Below, one piece after another: positions 11,629-41,674 of a DNA stretch of 41,798 nt (positions within the stretch are counted from its first letter, which is position 1; each line of letters opens with the position of its first letter). Source of the DNA: a virus; IMG/VR virus record IMGVR_UViG_3300034061_002761, positions 1-41,798 of that record. The stretch is one strand, 5' to 3'. Below the pieces are notes generated by a model. The model had not been told where the DNA came from. It searched no databases and saw only the letters and a list, made by a program, of their open reading frames with translations. The translations under genes were made by a program, and so were the position numbers.

Positions 11629-13274
11629 TGTCTGCGATCCAAGCGCAGGGCGGTGGGCGCGCCAGCAAGCGCAACGTCAACCAGACGGCATCAGCGTCAG
11701 CCAGCACAGCGGTGCCAGCACCGTGGGTGCGGCCAGCCGATTGGATCGCGCTGCCAGACGTTACCGGACTGCAACGGTTCGTGGGCATTCACCGAATTGA
11801 TCCAGAGGCGAACTTTGTCGCCCTCACTGCCGCAGGCGCATACACAGTGGATTGGGGCGACGGCACCACGACGAACCACGCCACCGGCACCACGGCGCAG
11901 CGGCAGTATGACTATTCCACAATCAGCAGCGCAGGCGAATCAACGCTTGGCTATCGCCATGTTCTGATTCAGGTGTACCCGCAATCCGGCCAGAATCTGA
12001 CCAGCCTTAATCTTCAAGTGCGACACAATCAATCTGGCATTTCCGCATACGCAACCGGGTGGCTCGACATTGCGATCAATAGCAGCAACCTCACCTCGCT
12101 GACGATCTCCAGTTCCACACTAGGACACCCATACCTACAGCAAGTCGCGATTGGTCAGCATGCGATTACCAATGCGACTTCCCTGTTCGCGTGGTGTCCA
12201 GCCCTGCAATCGGTGCCGCTGTTCAACACAGCAAACATCACCAACATGAGCAACATGTTTCAAAGTTGCTCCTCACTGCAATCGGTTCCGTTTTTCAACA
12301 CTGCGTCCTGCACGAACATGTCTGCCATGTTCGGATCGTGCCGTCGCCTGCTCTCTGTGCCGTCGTTCAGTACCGCGGCAGCGACGAACATGTCCTCAAT
12401 GTTCACTAACTGCATGTCGTTGCAGTCGGCTCCGTTTATGAACACCTCGGCAGCGACGAACATGTCCTCAATGTTCAACAACTGCGTGTCGCTGCAGTCG
12501 GTTCCGCACTACAACACGGCGGCCTGCACGAACATGCAATCAATGTTGTCAGGCTGCTATTCGCTGCTCACGGTGCCGCCGTTCAACACTGCGGCCTGCA
12601 CGAACATGAGTTCAATGTTCTTTGCTTCATCTGCGCTCACGACCGTCCCGTTTTTCAACACGGCAAACGTCACCAACATGGCTGGCATGTTTAACCAGTG
12701 CCACTCGCTGGTGTCGGTTCCGCTGTTCAGCACAGCAGCGGTTACGGACATGAGCAACATGTTTCGGCTGTGCTACTCGTTGACCACCGTTCCGCTGTTC
12801 AGCACAGCAGCCGCCCAGAACACCAGCAGCATGTTTTCTGGATGCACTGCACTGACCTCTGTTCCTCAGTTCAATCTCGCGGCCTGCACAAATGCGAACA
12901 ACATGTTTGTGGGTTGCACTGCGCTGGCCACGGTTCCGCTGTTTAACCTCTCGGCCTGCACGAACATGACCGCCCTGTTTAGCGGATGCACAGCACTGGC
13001 AAGCGTGCCTGCGCTCGTCACCTCCGCAGTGACGAGCGGAAACTTTGCGACGATGTTCGCCACATGCACCGCACTCTCCTCCGCGCCCCTGTCAGGCACC
13101 AACCAGAGCATCAGTTATTCGGGTTGCAAACTCAGCGGCACCGCGCTCAATGCGATCTACACGGGACTCTCGTCAAGCGGTGCTGGGAAAACGATCACGG
13201 TGACAGGAAACTACGGCACTGCCACACACACCACCTCTATAGCCACAGCCAAGGGGTGGACCGTAACGGTCTAG
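11628..13274 (+). CDS. Tail protein with BspA/DUF285-type leucine-rich repeats (548 aa)
   Basis: Residues about 50-180 look like a beta domain (ANFVALTAAGAYTVDWGDGT is the core of a PKD-like fold). Residues about 186-485 are roughly twelve tandem 24-residue repeats of the form MFxxCxSLxSVPxFNTAxxTNMSx, which is the DUF285/BspA-like repeat known from bacterial surface proteins. A separate C-terminal cap follows (SGTALNAIYTGLSSSGAG). The repeat face would form an elongated solenoid, well suited to binding a host surface molecule. Units differ mainly at solvent-exposed positions. The place among fibre genes supports a receptor-binding role, which is inferred. Confidence 0.8.
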   Translation: MSAIQAQGGGRASKRNVNQTASASASTAVPAPWVRPADWIALPDVTGLQRFVGIHRIDPEANFVALTAAGAYTVDWGDGTTTNHATGTTAQRQYDYSTISSAGESTLGYRHVLIQVYPQSGQNLTSLNLQVRHNQSGISAYATGWLDIAINSSNLTSLTISSSTLGHPYLQQVAIGQHAITNATSLFAWCPALQSVPLFNTANITNMSNMFQSCSSLQSVPFFNTASCTNMSAMFGSCRRLLSVPSFSTAAATNMSSMFTNCMSLQSAPFMNTSAATNMSSMFNNCVSLQSVPHYNTAACTNMQSMLSGCYSLLTVPPFNTAACTNMSSMFFASSALTTVPFFNTANVTNMAGMFNQCHSLVSVPLFSTAAVTDMSNMFRLCYSLTTVPLFSTAAAQNTSSMFSGCTALTSVPQFNLAACTNANNMFVGCTALATVPLFNLSACTNMTALFSGCTALASVPALVTSAVTSGNFATMFATCTALSSAPLSGTNQSISYSGCKLSGTALNAIYTGLSSSGAGKTITVTGNYGTATHTTSIATAKGWTVTV

Positions 13275-22250: not shown

Positions 22251-22744
22251 TGCTGCACATCACGCCAGACACTACGGTTGTGATCATCGGTCCACCGGGC
22301 AGCGGCAAGACCACCGTGGGCGAGTTGCTGGCAGAGCAGAGCGCACTGCCCCTGTACTCGACCGACCGATACTTGGGCTACGGTCACATCAAAGCCCTGT
22401 ACTGGGTCATGCAGGAGATCGGTGACGTTGGCTGGATCGTGGAAGGAATGATCGGCTACCGCCTGCTGCGCAAGCGAAAGCAGTTGGGCATGCCAGCACC
22501 GGACATCGTGATCCAACTAGACGCCGCTGACGCCGACATACTGGAGGCGTACCGGCAGCGGAACCGGCACTGCAACATCAACCACCTCCGCAACTTCTGC
22601 AAAGCCCACGAGACGGTGCTGAAGGAGTATGTCCTGCTCGACGGCGACATGCCCAAGATTTGGATTCACTGCAAGAGCAGGCAGGCTTGTCACCTAATCG
22701 GCGGCGGTCCTTCCGGCACCGCCAACAACGATTCGTCAATGTAG
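22250..22744 (+). CDS. P-loop kinase-like protein (164 aa)
   Basis: Walker A motif GPPGSGKT at residues 14-21, preceded by the strand TTVVII, and a general adenylate/shikimate-kinase-like size. The segment PDIVIQLDAADADILEAYRQR is consistent with the kinase core plus lid region. The substrate cannot be told. GTG start overlapping the previous stop by one base (TAGTG), with GGAGG a few bases before. The 3' end overlaps the 3' end of the convergent integrase by 55 bases. It is the last gene of the late block. Confidence 0.75.
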   Translation: MLHITPDTTVVIIGPPGSGKTTVGELLAEQSALPLYSTDRYLGYGHIKALYWVMQEIGDVGWIVEGMIGYRLLRKRKQLGMPAPDIVIQLDAADADILEAYRQRNRHCNINHLRNFCKAHETVLKEYVLLDGDMPKIWIHCKSRQACHLIGGGPSGTANNDSSM

Positions 22745-23520
22745 TGACGCACCGTCGTGGCACCGTCGCCATGCTGAAGGTACGCCCTCGCGCTCCCCGG
22801 CGTGGCCCGCTCCTTCATGGTGGCGCAAGAGCGGCGGAGAAACTTCATCGTGCCGCTGAACTTGTGTCGCTCCCGAAACGCGGCCATGCAAAGGAATGCC
22901 CTGCGGCGGGTGAGGAACCACCGGAACAACGTGCCGTCAGGAGAGGCGTCCGCCAGTTGCTTGGCCTGCTGGACTGCGTACTCCGACAGCGGACGAATGA
23001 ACGTCTTCCCTGTCTTGTGAGCAGTGCCAACCACTACGCAATCACGTATCTGATCGATGTGCAACTCATGCACATCTTGAAATCGCAGGCCACTGTCATA
23101 CGCAATCGTGATCCACGCTGGGAGAAAGTCGCAGACACGCTTCTTGTGACGCACGCTGATCACTGCCTCGTCTTGCTCCGCACACTCAAGCATTCGCGAC
23201 AGTGTTGGCATCGCCCACGCTTGCGTGGGTTTCGGCGCAGCCCTGACTCTCATCACTCGCAGCGGAGGCTCGTCCGTCAATCGTTCTTCAAATGCATACC
23301 GCCAGAGCGTAAGTGCTTCACGGCGAATGTTTTGCTTCGTCGTAGAAGTCAGGCTTGACAGGCTGACGAGCAGCCGGTTCAAATGTTCAGCCTGCAAATC
23401 GGAAACGGATTCGATTCCGGCTTCAGTCATCTTCCGCACGGTGCGGTTCAGGGACTCGCGGTAGCGGCTACCGCAATCCCGACCGCCCACATAGGCAGCA
23501 AGGAGGTCTGTCAGTTTCAT
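22690..23520 (-). CDS. int: Tyrosine site-specific recombinase (integrase)
   Basis: Catalyses integration of the phage at the att site next to its start. Counted from the MKLTDLL start, the catalytic set is Arg146 (SGLRFQDV), Lys169 or nearby (TAHKTGK), Arg229 (MKFLRRSCAT), His250 (YLQHGDG) and nucleophile Tyr260 (VRHYIDE). The first His of the HxxR box is replaced by Lys226, a known variation. An N-terminal SAM-like core-binding domain (about 1-90) is present. The frame stays open to an ATG at 23592, adding 24 poorly folded residues, so the start is uncertain. It is 276 aa, shorter than lambda-type enzymes, with no clear arm-binding domain. It overlaps the convergent kinase gene by 55 bases. 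Confidence 0.9.
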   Translation of the reverse strand: MKLTDLLAAYVGGRDCGSRYRESLNRTVRKMTEAGIESVSDLQAEHLNRLLVSLSSLTSTTKQNIRREALTLWRYAFEERLTDEPPLRVMRVRAAPKPTQAWAMPTLSRMLECAEQDEAVISVRHKKRVCDFLPAWITIAYDSGLRFQDVHELHIDQIRDCVVVGTAHKTGKTFIRPLSEYAVQQAKQLADASPDGTLFRWFLTRRRAFLCMAAFRERHKFSGTMKFLRRSCATMKERATPGSARAYLQHGDGATTVRHYIDESLLAVPEGPPPIR

Positions 23521-23619
23521 CGTTGTGCATCGGGGACCGCCTAATACATAGGGTTGCACCCCCCTTGCGCAGGTCAACCTGTTCGTAACCATATTCCCCC
23601 CATTTGAAGGATCAGTTTT
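23521..23619. promoter_or_regulatory. Divergent control region between integrase and recombination operon
   Basis: Ninety-nine bases separate the favoured integrase start from the GTG of the RecE-like gene. I see a GAAGGA ribosome site at 23606-23611, eight bases before that GTG. On the minus strand a TTGACC (23572-23577) faces a weak TATGTA (23545-23550), but the 21-base spacing is poor. Runs of G/C (ccccccttgcgc) are present, with no clear palindromic operator. No repressor gene is recognised nearby. Confidence 0.4.
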
Positions 23620-24534
23620 GTGACGCCTTTAACGAGCGCGCAAACTGATGAAGGGCAGCAGCACCGGCTTCATAAGCCGGGTGTCGCCGGTTCAAATCCG
23701 GCCGCCGCTACTACTCATCAGATTTGCCACACCCCAGCGGAGGAGTACCACCGCTGGCCCGAAGTTTCTTGCAGCCAGTTGAAGGCTCTTCGTGAGTCCC
23801 CGCTGGCATTCTACTTCCGCTTCATAGCACGAAGCGCACCCCCCCACAAGAGTGACGCTCTTGCATACGGGACGCTCCTCCATTCGTGGGCGGAAATCGG
23901 TGAGTCGGAGTTCTGGCCCAAGGTCGTTGTTGCCCCGGACACTTTGGTAACGGCGACCGGCGCACTCTCCAAGAAGGCTGACGAGTGGCTTGCCAGACTT
24001 GAGCCGGGGGTGATCCCGATCTCCCCAGCCGACCACGCCAAGTTGCGTGAGCAGACCAAGCGGCTGCTCGACAACCCGGATGTGGTCGAGATTCTGGAAG
24101 CCAGTACGGATGCAGAGTTCAACATCCGTACTACGTGGAACGGGCATGCAGTGCGTTGCCGTGTGGACGGCTGTACTCCCGCGTTCTTCTACGATTGGAA
24201 GACCACTCGCGATCTGAACCCGATGCGAGATTGGTGGCGCAGTGCCAAGCAGTTTGGATACCACCTCCAATCTGCCTTCTATCAGCACTGTGCCGAAGTG
24301 GCTGGATGGCCTCGCCATCGCATGCGCTTCATCGTGACCAGCACTGTCTGGCCCTACGACAACGCTGTTGGCGTATTGCCCGAAGAGTGGTGTGAAGCGG
24401 GGAGGAAGCAGTGCATTCGTCTTCTTGACGAACTGCGCACCCGCATGGATTTCGATCAGTGGGCGAACGTCAATCGCTCCACTGAAGTTCAAGAGTTCCC
24501 GTTCCCGGCCTATGCATTGAAAGGAGAAGAGTGA
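23620..24534 (+). CDS. RecE-like PD-(D/E)XK nuclease (DUF3799-like), N-terminus encoded by the att site
   Basis: Resembles the PD-(D/E)XK nuclease of phage RecE/exonuclease VIII type that resects double-strand ends for a partner annealing protein, here the ERF gene directly downstream. Visible are the family start (YHRWPEVSCSQLKALRESP), the LAYGTLLHSWAE helix with its His, and the core DGCTPAFFYDWKTTRDLNP near residues 183-200 with the DxK pair. GTG start with GAAGGA eight bases before it. No other ATG lies in frame before the conserved part. Residues about 14-30 (HRLHKPGVAGSNPA) are simply the tRNA fragment in translation, so integration must replace this gene's 5' end. Confidence 0.85.
   Translation: MTPLTSAQTDEGQQHRLHKPGVAGSNPAAATTHQICHTPAEEYHRWPEVSCSQLKALRESPLAFYFRFIARSAPPHKSDALAYGTLLHSWAEIGESEFWPKVVVAPDTLVTATGALSKKADEWLARLEPGVIPISPADHAKLREQTKRLLDNPDVVEILEASTDAEFNIRTTWNGHAVRCRVDGCTPAFFYDWKTTRDLNPMRDWWRSAKQFGYHLQSAFYQHCAEVAGWPRHRMRFIVTSTVWPYDNAVGVLPEEWCEAGRKQCIRLLDELRTRMDFDQWANVNRSTEVQEFPFPAYALKGEE
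23659..23710 (+). other. attP: Phage attachment site: 3' part of a tRNA-Met(CAT) gene
   Basis: Bases 23664-23680 form a perfect anticodon arm (CCGGC-TTCATAA-GCCGG, anticodon CAT), 23686-23702 a perfect T arm (GCCGG-TTCAAAT-CCGGC), and 23703-23710 the 3' acceptor strand plus discriminator (CGCCGCTA). No CCA is encoded. The upstream 26 bases do not complete the tRNA: only four of seven acceptor pairs can form, and the D arm is irregular. A tRNA 3' fragment next to an integrase is the classic signature of attP at a tRNA gene. CAT could be elongator Met or tRNA-Ile2; the stem is not the GGG/CCC initiator type. Confidence 0.85.
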
Positions 24535-25316
24535 TGCCACAAATTGGCAACTTGATGGTGAGTGTGTATCGGGAGGAGTCGAAGCATTGCAGCGAATTGA
24601 TCGCTGCAATGTGTGCAGCCCAGCCCGAATTTGAGCCTGTTGTTCTCGATAGCACGGGCTATCGCAATGGGCAGAAGTACAGGTACGCCTCGATCAAATC
24701 GATCCGCCGTGCCACACAGGTTGCGTTGGCGAAGCATGGCCTGCTTTGCCACCACATCTACGGGCATAGCGACGAGGGCGAGTACGTGGTCACGGTGCTG
24801 CGTCACGTGAGTGGCGAGTACATCGCGTCCACGCTGCGTATCCCGTCGAAGGACGATGTGCAGGAGAGCAAGGCAGCGAAGACGTTGCTGTGCCGCACCG
24901 CCATCGAGGGGCTGCTTGGCATCGTGACAGAGGATGACGATGACGGCGCATGCGTCACCGTCGATCCGGCCAAGCAGTCTCAGTGGAAGAGCAACCTCGA
25001 CCTTGCACTCAAAGCAATCGCGAGTGCCAGAAGTGAGGCAGACGTTATCCGCTACGCCACCCTGGCTGCGGATCGGATCAAGGAAGGAACCATGGCGCAG
25101 GACGCCATGGTCGAAATCAACACCAAGTGCGATGAACGTCGCGCGCAACTTCAAGGAGGAAAGAATGTTGACAACGCACGATTTGCTGGAACTGAAGGCC
25201 CGGATGCTTCTCGCAGCCGAGGCGGCTCACCAGATCGTGAGCAAGGAGGAGCCGCTGCAACTGGACGAGCAGACGTTCGCTCTGGTGACAAGCGCACTGT
25301 CGGCACTGCGGGCTGA
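24534..25316 (+). CDS. erf: ERF-family single-strand annealing protein
   Basis: ERF proteins anneal complementary strands and act with a 5'-3' exonuclease; here they follow a RecE-like nuclease with TGATG overlap. ERF hallmarks are visible around residues 45-105: YASIKSIRRATQVALAKHG, YVVTVLRHVSGEYIASTLRI. The ATG at 24534 is preferred to GTG 24531 because AGGAG sits seven bases before it. Residues after about 212 (GGKNVDNARFAGTEG and on) are low complexity and read through the next gene in another frame, so the true fold probably ends near residue 210. A coiled-coil-like region precedes this. Confidence 0.85.
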   Translation: MPQIGNLMVSVYREESKHCSELIAAMCAAQPEFEPVVLDSTGYRNGQKYRYASIKSIRRATQVALAKHGLLCHHIYGHSDEGEYVVTVLRHVSGEYIASTLRIPSKDDVQESKAAKTLLCRTAIEGLLGIVTEDDDDGACVTVDPAKQSQWKSNLDLALKAIASARSEADVIRYATLAADRIKEGTMAQDAMVEINTKCDERRAQLQGGKNVDNARFAGTEGPDASRSRGGSPDREQGGAAATGRADVRSGDKRTVGTAG

Positions 25317-25599: not shown

Positions 25600-25645
25600 G
25601 AGGCAGCGTTGGATTGCTGCCAAGACTCCACAGGGAATGGTCTGA
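25400..25645 (+). CDS. Hypothetical small helical protein (81 aa)
   Basis: The ATG at 25400 has CAGGAG seven bases before it; the ATG at 25394 is only one base from that site. The sequence MDVQQMWEQCSHKRLRQVA, then LVALFDLAGLTGRRAADPSP and IAAAARVIRESWTP, is helical and soluble, reminiscent of small DNA-binding or adaptor proteins, but I recognise no family. It overlaps the gene before it by 200 bases in the +1 frame and ends just before the helicase. Confidence 0.6.
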   Translation: MDVQQMWEQCSHKRLRQVAEENGLTSQALVALFDLAGLTGRRAADPSPSEIAAAARVIRESWTPEVERQRWIAAKTPQGMV

Positions 25646-25659
25646 CAAGGAGGTGCCGC

Positions 25660-27234
25660 ATGCAGGGCTGGATGGATTTCATGGAGGGAGAGGTCGAACG
25701 TGCGCCCAAGCCGTATCGACCACGCCCGTACCAAGTCGAGGCCAAGGACCGTGTAAAGGCGCACTGTCAGACCACTGACAAGACCGCCCTCTACATCGCG
25801 ACCGGGTGCGGGAAGACGGAAATTGCAGCCTTGTTATGCCAAGAGGATTGGTCAGGGAAGGGCCACCTCTTCATCACACCGCGCAGAGAACTGGTGCGTC
25901 AGTCGGCTGACCGCCTGACTCTGCGCGGTGTGCCATGCGGCATCGAGATGGCGGAGCAGCGTTCGGACGAGCGCACCACCGTGGCCTGCTACCAGAGCCT
26001 GCAAAGCAGGCAGCGGTACAGGAAGTTCCTTGGGACCGTTGGCCTCGTGATCGTGGACGAGAGCCATCTGAACTACAGCGAGTCCGCCCTGCGAATGCTG
26101 GCGGAGTTCCGCGAGTGGGGGGCAAAGGTGGTGGGCATGACTGCCTCCCCCCCGAAGAAGAAGAACGTCACCCTGCACGAACACTATGGCGATGCAGCCT
26201 ATGTCTATGACTACGGGCAGGCAGTCGCGGACGGGTATCTCGTGCCGTGTGAGTTAAGCCTTTGCCTTCTGGAAGACCTCGACCTCTCCGGGTTCAAGGC
26301 GTCGTTCGGCGGCGAAGACCCGGACTTCAACCAGAGCCGCATTGCGCGACTCATGGAGAAGAAAGCCATCGTCGCAGGCGTTGGCAACATGGTCGCACAG
26401 TACTGGGAAGAGAAGCCTAGTGTTGTCTTCTGCTCCTCGATCCAGCAGGCAGAGTTGGTTCGCGACGATCTCTGCGGGCGTGGCATTCATGCGTCCATCG
26501 TCCATTCGCAAATGGATGCCGAAGAGCAGAGGCTGCACCTCAACGATTTCATGGATGGATCGTCACAGGTCGTTATCAACGTGGGCATCCTAACACTGGG
26601 ATGGGACGCGCCACATGTCGTGAACCTATTTATCGCGAGGCCCACCGCCAGCGGGTGCCTCTATATCCAGATGTTCGGCAGAGGGACTCGCTGCCTGCCC
26701 GGAGTGATCGACGGGCTGGACACGGTGGAGGAGCGGCTGGCTGCGATTGCTGCATCCGCAAAGCCGCACTTCCGGGTGTTCGATATCACAGACGCATCGC
26801 GGCACAACGATCTGAAGACCGCGCTCGATGTGCTGCGGCCCAATCTCGATGACCGCTTGATGAAGCGGATGCGCCGCCGCATGCAGCGTGGGCCGGTTGC
26901 CCCGCAGGAACTGGATGCCGTCATCAAGGCAGAGGCCAAGGCTCTCGCGGCGGAGCAGGCAGCGATTGACGCGCTGGAGATGCGGAAGCGTGGCAACGTC
27001 TACGTGGGCGGCACGGTGGTGGCGTATGAGCGAGACACGTTCGCTGACGCCGAGACGCACCACCGCAGGAAGGTTCACGATGTTTGGTGGATGACGTTCG
27101 GTCGCTTCAAGGGGCGTGGCTTCAAGGCCATTCACGCTGAAGCCCCGTGGTATCTGCCTTACATGCTGAAGAAGGGCGTCATCAAGGACGAGGGTCTGGC
27201 CCGCAACATCCGCAAGTTCCTGTCCACCCGTTAA
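25660..27234 (+). CDS. Superfamily 2 DEAD/DEAH-box helicase (524 aa)
   Basis: ATP-dependent helicase, probably for replication or recombination since it follows the RecE-like and ERF genes. Walker A ATGCGKT near residues 47-53, Walker B box VDESH near 131-135, motif III TASPP near 160, and helicase C-domain motifs including INVGILTLGWDAP and QMFGRGTRC (near 336). The Arg pair of motif VI is present. The C-terminal 110 residues are extra, with a charged helix (DAVIKAEAKALAAEQAAID) and KFKGRGFK-like end. Start: ATG with AAGGAGGT (25647-25654) five bases before it, two bases after the preceding stop. Confidence 0.85.
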   Translation: MQGWMDFMEGEVERAPKPYRPRPYQVEAKDRVKAHCQTTDKTALYIATGCGKTEIAALLCQEDWSGKGHLFITPRRELVRQSADRLTLRGVPCGIEMAEQRSDERTTVACYQSLQSRQRYRKFLGTVGLVIVDESHLNYSESALRMLAEFREWGAKVVGMTASPPKKKNVTLHEHYGDAAYVYDYGQAVADGYLVPCELSLCLLEDLDLSGFKASFGGEDPDFNQSRIARLMEKKAIVAGVGNMVAQYWEEKPSVVFCSSIQQAELVRDDLCGRGIHASIVHSQMDAEEQRLHLNDFMDGSSQVVINVGILTLGWDAPHVVNLFIARPTASGCLYIQMFGRGTRCLPGVIDGLDTVEERLAAIAASAKPHFRVFDITDASRHNDLKTALDVLRPNLDDRLMKRMRRRMQRGPVAPQELDAVIKAEAKALAAEQAAIDALEMRKRGNVYVGGTVVAYERDTFADAETHHRRKVHDVWWMTFGRFKGRGFKAIHAEAPWYLPYMLKKGVIKDEGLARNIRKFLSTR

Positions 27235-32758: not shown

Positions 32759-33274
32759 ATGCCCCGCCGACTCACGCAGAAGCAGCAGGCGCAAGCCGAG
32801 GCTGCTATGCGATTCATACAGCCGACTGTTGCGGTGTTCGTGCGCCGCAATCCAGACCTTCGTCCATCCATTAGGCGAGTGGACATGGAGAGCGTGGCCC
32901 AGTACGCAGTGTGCATGGCTGCGTTCACGTATGACCCGGAGAAGTCGCAGCCGACCACCTACTTCAGCAGTGCCATCCGCCACGCACTGTACCGGGCTGT
33001 GTTGAATCAGCAGAAGTTGGATGGCCGGTACATTCCGACCGAAAGACTGTTTGAGCCGGAACCCAATCGGCACCGTACCCGCCAAGAGATGCGGGCGATG
33101 CGTGCGCTGCGGAGACTGTCGGCGCAGGACCGCACACTGCTGGAGGACAGACTGATCGAGCAAGTCACGCTGGAGCAGTTGTCTTCCGAGCAGCGGTGCG
33201 ATCCGCGCACGATAGGAAAGAGAGTGCGACGGGCAATCGACCGTCTACGTGCGGCACAGGACGATCTGCCCTGA
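32759..33274 (+). CDS. Sigma-70-like RNA polymerase sigma factor (171 aa)
   Basis: Residues about 40-82 look like sigma region 2 (FTYDPEKSQPTTYFSSAIRHALYRAV; the YDP...TTYF...IR core is typical). Residues about 115-165 look like region 4 (LSAQDRTLLEDRLIEQVTLEQ, TIGKRVRRAIDRLRAAQ). It would direct host RNA polymerase to phage promoters. It has no region 1.1 and is shorter than primary sigma factors. It ends inside the convergent serine recombinase gene, overlapping by 30 bases. A direct DNA-binding regulator using only region 4 is an alternative. Confidence 0.75.
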   Translation: MPRRLTQKQQAQAEAAMRFIQPTVAVFVRRNPDLRPSIRRVDMESVAQYAVCMAAFTYDPEKSQPTTYFSSAIRHALYRAVLNQQKLDGRYIPTERLFEPEPNRHRTRQEMRAMRALRRLSAQDRTLLEDRLIEQVTLEQLSSEQRCDPRTIGKRVRRAIDRLRAAQDDLP

Positions 33275-34024
33275 CCGCCACTTGCGGCTGAACTCTTCCA
33301 TGTTGGTGATGAGTGGGTAGTCAGCCATCCTCGCCCGCAACGCCCACTTCACCCGGTTGCCCGTGAAGAAACTCCGCTTGCAGGTGAACTGCTTCTGCGT
33401 GTAGTTCCACTGTGCGATCTCGTCATACGACATGCCACTGTCCCGCATGTCCTGCATGTGGTCGCACAGTTTCCTCTCCAGATGGTCAACCCGATAAGCC
33501 TTGGACTTGCGATCACCCACGATCTTCCACCCGATGGGGGCAGACCGTGAGTACGGCAGACCTTGCTGCCGCTTGATCGCGTTGTCCTCCTTCATCCTCT
33601 CGCTGACCACCCGCCGCATGAGTTGGGCGGAGAGCAGGAGAGTACCCTGCATGTACTCCGCATACGCACGGGGCATGCGGTCGAAGTCGATCATGGGCAT
33701 GTCGAGCAGCACGTGCTTGACGCCCCTCGCCTCCAGCATGTCGAGCGTATGGAACCCATCCTTGCGGGAGCGGAACATACGATCCATGGCAGCAGTCACG
33801 ATCATGTCCCCACGCTGGGCGAGGAGAAACACTTGCCGCCCGTACTCACGCTCTGCAAACGGGGATGAACCAGAGACGGCGGGATCGTAGTAGAACCCGC
33901 CCCACTCATACCCTTCTGGCTGAAGGTGCCGCTTGAAGTACTCCTCGCACTTCGCTTCCTGCACCTCCTTCGTCATGCCCTGCTTGTCAGTACTGTGCCG
34001 CCCGTATCCGTAGCACTTAGCCAT
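33245..34024 (-). CDS. Serine site-specific recombinase (resolvase/invertase type, 259 aa)
   Basis: The N-terminal catalytic domain reads MAKCYGYGRHSTDKQGMT with nucleophile Ser11 (YxRxST), then DPAVSGSSPFAEREYGRQVF and MIVTAAMDRMFRSRKDG (the DRxxR pair). The C-terminal 100 residues contain a helix-turn-helix-like region (SGMSYDEIAQWNYTQKQFTC). It could resolve multimers, invert DNA (fibre switching) or act as a second integrase. It is the last gene of the MoxR/VWA operon, overlapping the gene before it by one base (TGATG) and the sigma gene by 30 bases. AAAGGAG precedes ATG by ten bases. Confidence 0.85.
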   Translation of the reverse strand: MAKCYGYGRHSTDKQGMTKEVQEAKCEEYFKRHLQPEGYEWGGFYYDPAVSGSSPFAEREYGRQVFLLAQRGDMIVTAAMDRMFRSRKDGFHTLDMLEARGVKHVLLDMPMIDFDRMPRAYAEYMQGTLLLSAQLMRRVVSERMKEDNAIKRQQGLPYSRSAPIGWKIVGDRKSKAYRVDHLERKLCDHMQDMRDSGMSYDEIAQWNYTQKQFTCKRSFFTGNRVKWALRARMADYPLITNMEEFSRKWRSGQIVLCRT

Positions 34025-34317
34025 CAGACTGCCGCTCCTTTCTTCGCACGAGGGCGATGGTCGCACAGGTGCCTAAGCGCACCCATGAACCAGACCGGCG
34101 TGTCATCGCCGTTCATCTCGATGATCTTCGAGCGCACAACCATCGGGTCTGTTCCCATCGGAACGAAGGACCGCAGTGTGCGATGGATGATCTTGTGATC
34201 TGGCTTCCACTCAACCCACTCTGCAACGTAATCGCAGACGGGGTATTCAGTCTCGTCCAGATAGAACCGCACTTCCTTCTTGCCTTCGGACATGAAGGCA
34301 TCGCTGTTGCTAAACAT
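34024..34317 (-). CDS. Hypothetical protein (97 aa)
   Basis: Start chosen at ATG 34317 with AAAGGAG six bases before it; the longer frame to 34461 is the coding shadow of the gene upstream. It reads EVRFYLDETEYPVCDYVAEW, then PMGTDPMVVRSKIIEMNGDD. Unknown family. The TGA overlaps the recombinase ATG by one base, so it may be translationally coupled to the recombinase. Confidence 0.65.
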   Translation of the reverse strand: MFSNSDAFMSEGKKEVRFYLDETEYPVCDYVAEWVEWKPDHKIIHRTLRSFVPMGTDPMVVRSKIIEMNGDDTPVWFMGALRHLCDHRPRAKKGAAV

Positions 34318-40752: not shown

Positions 40753-40925
40753 CCGACCGCCGCCGGGTAAGGAGGCGCGGGCGCGTTACCGCGTTACGTC
40801 GCGCGCGAAGTCAGCCCTCATTGCAGCCCTGACTCTGCGCGCATGTCGTTCGCTCGATCTTTCAGCGGGCTATTGCGATTTGCCCGCAAGCCACAAGGCA
40901 TGACGCGAAGTGGTGGTGCTGGCAG

Positions 40926-40939
40926 CGGGGGGGAGAAGG
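40926..40939 (+). promoter_or_regulatory. G7 motif, copy 3
   Basis: CGGGGGGGAGAAGG on the plus strand followed by GATGGGGTGAGG, very close to copy 1. It points at the gene at 40991, about 50 bases away. No pairing arm is seen upstream here. Confidence 0.65.
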
Positions 40940-40967
40940 GATGGGGTGAGGCTGCTGCTGGAGCGGC

Positions 40968-40982
40968 CATCCCAACAAGGAG
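40968..40982 (+). promoter_or_regulatory. CATCCCAACAAGGAG leader motif, third copy
   Basis: Third copy of the leader that ends in the ribosome-binding sequence, eight bases before ATG 40991. Confidence 0.5.
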
Positions 40983-40990
40983 TTGTTCCC

Positions 40991-41674
40991 ATGTTCGTTT
41001 CCCTCACGATGGTCAGCGCGAATCGCAAGGTTGGTCCGATCCCGGTCAGCACGACGGAGAAAGACTCTTGCCCCAAGGAGTGTTCGCTCAAGGACACCGA
41101 TTGCTACGCCCGGTTTGGTCCGCTCGGCATGCACTGGAGCAAGGTGGGAGAGGGCAAGCGTGGCTGGCAGTGGACGTTGTTCTGCCGTGCCGTTGCCAAG
41201 TTCCCCAAGTTCCAACTCTGGCGGCACAATCAAGCGGGCGATCTTCCGCAGGATGACAACGGCAAGATCGACGCCGACAAGTGCAGCGAATTGTCCGCTG
41301 CCTCTCGACACACGAGGGGCTGGACATACACGCACTACGATCCGACCGACTCGCACAATGCTGCGGTCATTCGGAAGATGAACAGTGTCCGCGGACTGAC
41401 GGTCAATCTGTCAGCGGACACGGTGCAACAGGCGGACGAGTACCACGCTCTTGGCATCGCCCCGGTCGTGGTGATTCTGCCCGAAGATGCCCCGGCCATG
41501 GGCAACAAGACTCCCGGTGGCCTGCCGATTGTCACGTGTCCCGCACAGACAACGGACGGCATGGCCTGCAATCAGTGCAAGTTGTGCTACGTGAAAGACC
41601 GCAAGTCGATTGTCGGCTTTCTCGCTCACGGTGCTGCAAGCAAGCGGCTGTCTCGCTCACTGCGGGCAGTCTGA
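40991..41674 (+). CDS. Gp88-like cysteine-rich phage protein (227 aa)
   Basis: ATG 40991 with AAGGAG eight bases before it. The N-terminus SANRKVGPIPVSTTEKDSCP, then CYARFGPLGMHW, and RHNQAGDLPQ match the Gp88/DUF7227 pattern known from actinophages and other phages. A Cys-rich motif near residues 199-207 (ACNQCKLCYVKD) could bind a metal or an Fe-S cluster. The biochemical role is unknown. Followed by a terminator. Confidence 0.75.
   Translation: MFVSLTMVSANRKVGPIPVSTTEKDSCPKECSLKDTDCYARFGPLGMHWSKVGEGKRGWQWTLFCRAVAKFPKFQLWRHNQAGDLPQDDNGKIDADKCSELSAASRHTRGWTYTHYDPTDSHNAAVIRKMNSVRGLTVNLSADTVQQADEYHALGIAPVVVILPEDAPAMGNKTPGGLPIVTCPAQTTDGMACNQCKLCYVKDRKSIVGFLAHGAASKRLSRSLRAV

Follow-up and report, generated by a model that had tools for sequence, protein, structure and literature searches.

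We found that, in this virus, the 3′ half of a tRNA-Met gene is read as part of the 5′ end of a RecE-like nuclease gene. We consider it probable that this half is the core of the phage attachment site (attP) and that integration would split the nuclease start from its body, leaving the enzyme off until excision. The stretch analyzed, hereafter the window, comprises a single linear IMG/VR record (41,798 bases). In it, a leftward tyrosine integrase gene, the tRNA-Met(CAU) half, and a rightward recombination operon (RecE-like nuclease, ERF, helicase) follow one another. The features on which the argument draws are these (related records carry L numbers):

22690 to 23520, minus strand: tyrosine integrase, 276 aa from the ATG at 23520 (PF00589, 8.6e-6, a score below the Pfam cut-off; PHROG integrase, 2.8e-8).
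23521 to 23619, no strand assigned: divergent intergenic region, presumed to hold the integrase and nuclease promoters.
23606 to 23611, plus strand: ribosome-binding site GAAGGA (AAGGA at 23607-23611), 8 nt before the GTG; equivalents in L018, L021, and L023.
23620 to 24534, plus strand: RecE/ExoVIII-like PD-(D/E)XK nuclease, 304 aa, reading through the tRNA segment (PF12684, 4.7e-14; PHROG exonuclease VIII, phrog_412, 2.5e-44).
23662 to 23710, plus strand: 3′ half of an elongator-type tRNA-Met(CAU), 49 nt, the putative attP common core, from sequence, Rfam, and lineage comparison.
23664 to 23680, plus strand: anticodon arm, a 5-bp inverted repeat with a 7-bp loop, identical in five lineages; putative integrase core site and place of strand exchange.
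23722 to 24531, plus strand: conserved nuclease core, from residue 35, where 62-64% identity to L018 and L021 starts.
24534 to 25316, plus strand: ERF-type single-strand annealing protein (PF04404, 2.2e-8), with its own AAAGGAG and an ATG at 24534.
25609 to 27234, plus strand: DNA helicase, conserved part from about 25660 (PF04851/PF00271).

The nuclease combines a PD-(D/E)XK domain with RecE-family similarity. The best Foldseek match for its structural model was E. coli RecE (3h4r, E 1.4e-7), from a model that is of low confidence (pLDDT 58.5 overall) and in which the tRNA-derived leader is disordered (pLDDT < 40). The frame is open downstream of an in-frame TGA at 23605-23607. GTG 23620 is the sole canonical start ahead of the conserved core and stands between the integrase and the tRNA segment; after it, the frame has no canonical start until TTG 23779, which falls within a conserved N-terminal motif. 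The initial annotation had read the tRNA fragment as translated in the nuclease frame, at 23659-23710 and residues 14-30, with the GTG and its ribosome site on the integrase side. We refine the fragment to 23662-23710 and residues about 15-31, and the start lies on that same side in all five lineages described below. Because it does, any crossover inside the block would part the nuclease start from its body, as had been claimed for recombination in the tRNA segment, and by this geometry an attP in the block would lie inside an ORF whose product integration would alter, in each of the five lineages. The further claim that no good in-frame start remains agrees with a codon scan: between the end of the tRNA and the YHxW motif at the start of the core, ATG, GTG, and TTG account for 0 of 55 in-frame codons pooled over the five lineages. 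Leaky initiation may still occur at TTG 23779, at a non-canonical codon, from a start supplied by the host tRNA 5′ half, or, in L031, at GTG 3017 within the tRNA.

The fragment spans the tRNA from just 5′ of the anticodon stem through the discriminator base. The stem pairs CCGGC (23664-23668) with GCCGG (23676-23680) around the loop TTCATAA (23669-23675); the variable loop (23681-23685), the T-arm (23686-23702), the acceptor 3′ strand CGCCGCT (23703-23709), and discriminator A (23710) follow. Rfam scored 23644-23710 as tRNA at 29.9 bits against a gathering threshold of 29, with the signal coming from the 3′ half and a 5′ part that is not tRNA-like, and ARAGORN called no complete tRNA at the fragment in the window. 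An inverted repeat of 5 bp with a 7-bp spacer is the form of the tyrosine-integrase core site at tRNA attachment sites. The common cores of tyrosine integrases usually take in the tRNA 3′ half, so that the tRNA is rebuilt on integration (PMC10865867). The window has both a core that reaches the tRNA 3′ end and an adjoining tyrosine recombinase gene, whose product retains R146, K169, KxLR (R229), H250, and Y260, with the first box II His replaced by Lys. From this arrangement, the tRNA-Met half is very probably the attP of the neighboring integrase. That identification draws on the same order in five lineages with an adjacent integrase and on the absence of the fragment from three relatives without one, a distribution that also fits the initial placement of attP within the start of the RecE-like gene.

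Several searches bear on how the site is used. The anticodon-arm pattern occurs as one exact copy in each of the five integrase-bearing records searched, which is the free attP form, and among the integrase-bearing records searched no attL or attR junction or prophage form was found. Plasmid and phage collections searched for a host or attB site with the tRNA half and the integrase yielded, for the tRNA, only partial matches to unrelated taxa, at about 80-88%. Neither exact nor degenerate tRNA patterns had a match among the genome contigs and viral contigs; by requiring TTCRAAT, the degenerate pattern passed over variants with TTCAAGT. Candidate arm-type sites, an inverted TGGCAAAT(C)/GATTTGCCA pair of 8-9 nt, were seen on both sides of the tRNA core only in L018 and L021, where one member sits upstream of the nuclease start; the window has only the right copy, at 23722-23731, and clear paired arm-type sites were not found in it. 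No sigma-70 consensus was found in a sequence search of the 23521-23619 intergenic region.

The arrangement recurs in at least five diverged lineages (the window, L017/L018, L021, L023/L024, and L031) from seven IMG/VR records, two of these lineages each being present in two different metagenomes. The near-identical L017 and L018, from two metagenomes, were found through the helicase, which is 66-71% identical in relatives; L021 and L023/L024 were found with two-sequence alignments of nuclease and integrase, and L030 to L033 with a four-sequence nuclease alignment. All five lineages share the order of leftward integrase, upstream start codon, tRNA-Met 3′ half, and nuclease core. The leaders are mutually unalignable, and the tRNA block is kept while its flanks cannot be aligned. 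Within the block, the anticodon arm is the same in all five, and T-arm and acceptor bases vary among the window, L018, L021, and L023; such lineage-specific variants are as expected if each phage tracks the tRNA of its own host. The window, L021, and L023 read the tRNA as RLHKPGVAGS(N/S)PAA and L018 and L031 in a different frame (GFISR...), so conservation is not of the amino acid sequence; the third frame would hit a TAA in the anticodon loop. In L018, despite its different frame, the nuclease is still open from an ATG preceded by a ribosome site. That site is GGAGG, and L021 and L023 have AAGGAG; the L031 start (ATG 2936) is uncertain, with a weak ribosome site. In L023, a four-codon ORF (ATG GTT TCC TAA) just upstream shares bases with the nuclease ATG (TAATG) and may act as a coupled leader. 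For L031, ARAGORN called a whole tRNA overlapping the fragment; it scored below the Rfam gathering cut-off and was treated as a half-tRNA. Comparison of SNPs between near-identical pairs gave nothing informative on the leader.

To gauge chance, the flanks of the tRNA block were shuffled and scored for an open core frame reached from an upstream start with a Shine-Dalgarno-like word. This outcome arose in 0.03-0.13 of shuffles per lineage, and the five-lineage product of about 6e-7 is a rough guide, optimistic because related lineages are counted as independent.

Three relatives (L030, L032, and L033) have nucleases that are 49-53% identical, with no integrase adjoining. Here "no integrase" means none beside the nuclease, since PF00589, which matched nothing in these records, also missed the L031 integrase (detected by comparing it directly with that of the window), and the records may be fragments. 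Their nucleases have a normal ATG about 10-13 codons ahead of YHGW, and none of the three has a tRNA match. The fragment thus tracks the adjacent integrase, being present in 5/5 lineages with one vs. 0/3 without. In the nuclease tree, L031 groups with L032 and L033 and the remaining integrase-bearing lineages group with L030, so the integrase-bearing state changed at least twice; on these sequences, the history would be explained by a cassette that was acquired on two occasions or by an ancient one that was lost at least two times.

The window has other features of note. A serine recombinase (33245-34066, minus strand, PF00239, 2e-18) is found in relatives both with and without the tyrosine integrase, and a plus-strand ORF at 32759-33274 has weak similarity to sigma-70 region 4 and may encode a phage sigma factor. 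The element CTTCTCCCCCCCG recurs at about 313, 38311, and 40745 (plus strand) and at about 40933 and 41791 (minus strand), apparently mostly between genes, and is a possible phage regulatory element. A diverged 72-nt repeat occurs in ten copies at 12204-12980 in a putative tail gene. The DUF7227 protein (40910-41674, plus strand) is common to many otherwise different viruses at about 45-71% identity; the relatives found through it carry neither the nuclease nor the integrase and were set aside.

In the mechanism that we propose, translation from free phage DNA would run from GTG 23620 through the tRNA segment into the nuclease core, with the tRNA-derived leader dispensable and probably disordered. 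Integration would most likely occur by strand exchange in the 7-bp anticodon loop, a crossover point that we infer from the form of the arm. The 23521-23619 region, with the promoter region, ribosome site, and start codon, would stay at the integrase end of the prophage. The nuclease body, with no canonical start ahead of its core, would land at the other end, immediately after the host tRNA-Met that integration rebuilds. The nuclease would be off in the prophage, and excision would restore it. As the body would lie behind the host tRNA promoter, the missing start may shield the lysogen from a double-strand exonuclease, and a benefit of this kind is plausible.

Whether such a split has been selected is a separate question. 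We can only tentatively suggest that temperate phages of this family share a conserved, selected switch: integration would disconnect the nuclease from its promoter and start codon, excision would re-arm it, and the arrangement would have arisen or disappeared on two or more occasions. The split could instead be a tolerated by-product with no selected role, a reading that we also hold as possible rather than probable, in which an integrase-attP cassette inserted at the front of the operon and a start was re-made beyond the tRNA. Unrelated leaders read in two frames would then be mere filler peptide, and relatives without an adjacent integrase fall in both parts of the nuclease tree, which suggests that the cassette comes or goes; for example, in L030, a kinase-like gene adjoins the nuclease with no integrase between. 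However, all five integrase-bearing lineages retain the site within the gene even though the integrases of the others are just 45-52% identical to that of the window, and in none of the five has the start moved downstream of the tRNA. The physical split would occur regardless of its origin.

The initial annotation had gone further and proposed that the entire RecE-like/ERF/helicase operon works only from free phage DNA. This does not follow, as ERF has its own ribosome site and ATG and a host tRNA promoter could serve the downstream genes. Only the nuclease loses its start, so any effects on ERF and the helicase would be indirect, through lost coupling or polarity; lost coupling to an untranslated nuclease could lower ERF. 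Another reading is promoter capture, in which the host tRNA-Met promoter might drive ERF and helicase in the lysogen, with the nuclease staying silent. The operon and the tRNA have the same orientation, ERF can be translated independently, and there is a precedent in ICEKp1, where the tRNA promoter reads a gene placed behind the tRNA when the element is integrated (PMC13023037). We nevertheless regard such capture as unlikely, as the overlap of the nuclease stop with the start of ERF (TGATG), together with polarity across the untranslated nuclease region, should reduce ERF.

There is little likelihood that nuclease translation begins beyond the tRNA segment, at ATT 23722 for instance, and that integration thus leaves the gene unsplit. 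Conservation does begin there, at residue 35, with ATT TGC CAC identical at the DNA level in the window, L018, and L021. However, no integrase-bearing lineage has a canonical start or a ribosome site at that point, L023 and L031 have GTT and GTC, respectively, in place of the ATT, and the upstream frame is open with a start codon in 5/5 lineages, at a chance of about 3-13% each. A reading of the tRNA half as a relic or regulatory hairpin, and not as the attP of the adjoining integrase, would fit the unmatched tRNA patterns in genome contigs (the degenerate one being too strict at the T-loop) and the fact that the searches above turned up no host attB or prophage, but it is highly improbable given the strict link to an adjacent integrase, the lineage-specific tRNA variants, and the palindrome with a 7-bp spacer.

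An attP inside a gene is already known from several systems. The initial annotation gave the mycobacteriophage repressor as the known parallel, and the parallel holds but is not the sole one. In BPs and its relatives, attP lies inside the repressor gene and immunity depends on integration (PMC4557955); as here, an attP within a phage ORF means that integration changes the gene product. However, the BPs repressor loses its 3′ end and becomes shorter, while this gene is a RecE-like nuclease that would lose its promoter region, ribosome site, and start, with no product expected. Phage Mx8 also has attP inside a coding sequence, that of its integrase, whose 3′ end is altered, and not in an early lytic or recombination gene (PMC6070905). 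In the SSV-type (suicidal) archaeal integrases, the attachment site likewise lies in a viral ORF that is broken in two by integration, but there the integrase itself is split (PMC8371274), whereas in the window the fragment lies outside the integrase gene, which stays whole. ICEKp1 integrates at a tRNA 3′ end and sets element genes behind the tRNA promoter, but the switched gene is the integrase, transcribed from that promoter, and no ORF is split (PMC13023037). Cyanophage P-SS2 has a tRNA-Met segment near its integrase and phage recombination genes as a putative attP, although, by its description, which is the basis of this comparison, the segment lies between int and bet and is non-coding (PMC2784084); the stretch retrieved around the P-SS2 exonuclease gene does not contain the integrase. 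Our literature search of open-licence papers found no published case of attP within an early recombination nuclease, in agreement with the annotation, to which no described case was known.

If the proposed mechanism is correct, integration-dependent control, known for repressors and integrases, would also cover a recombination gene of the early lytic phase, and phages would have a repressor-independent means of holding their exonuclease off in the lysogen. The tRNA fragment, serving as a translated leader in two frames, also provides a clean natural experiment in which selection at the DNA level can be set against selection at the protein level.
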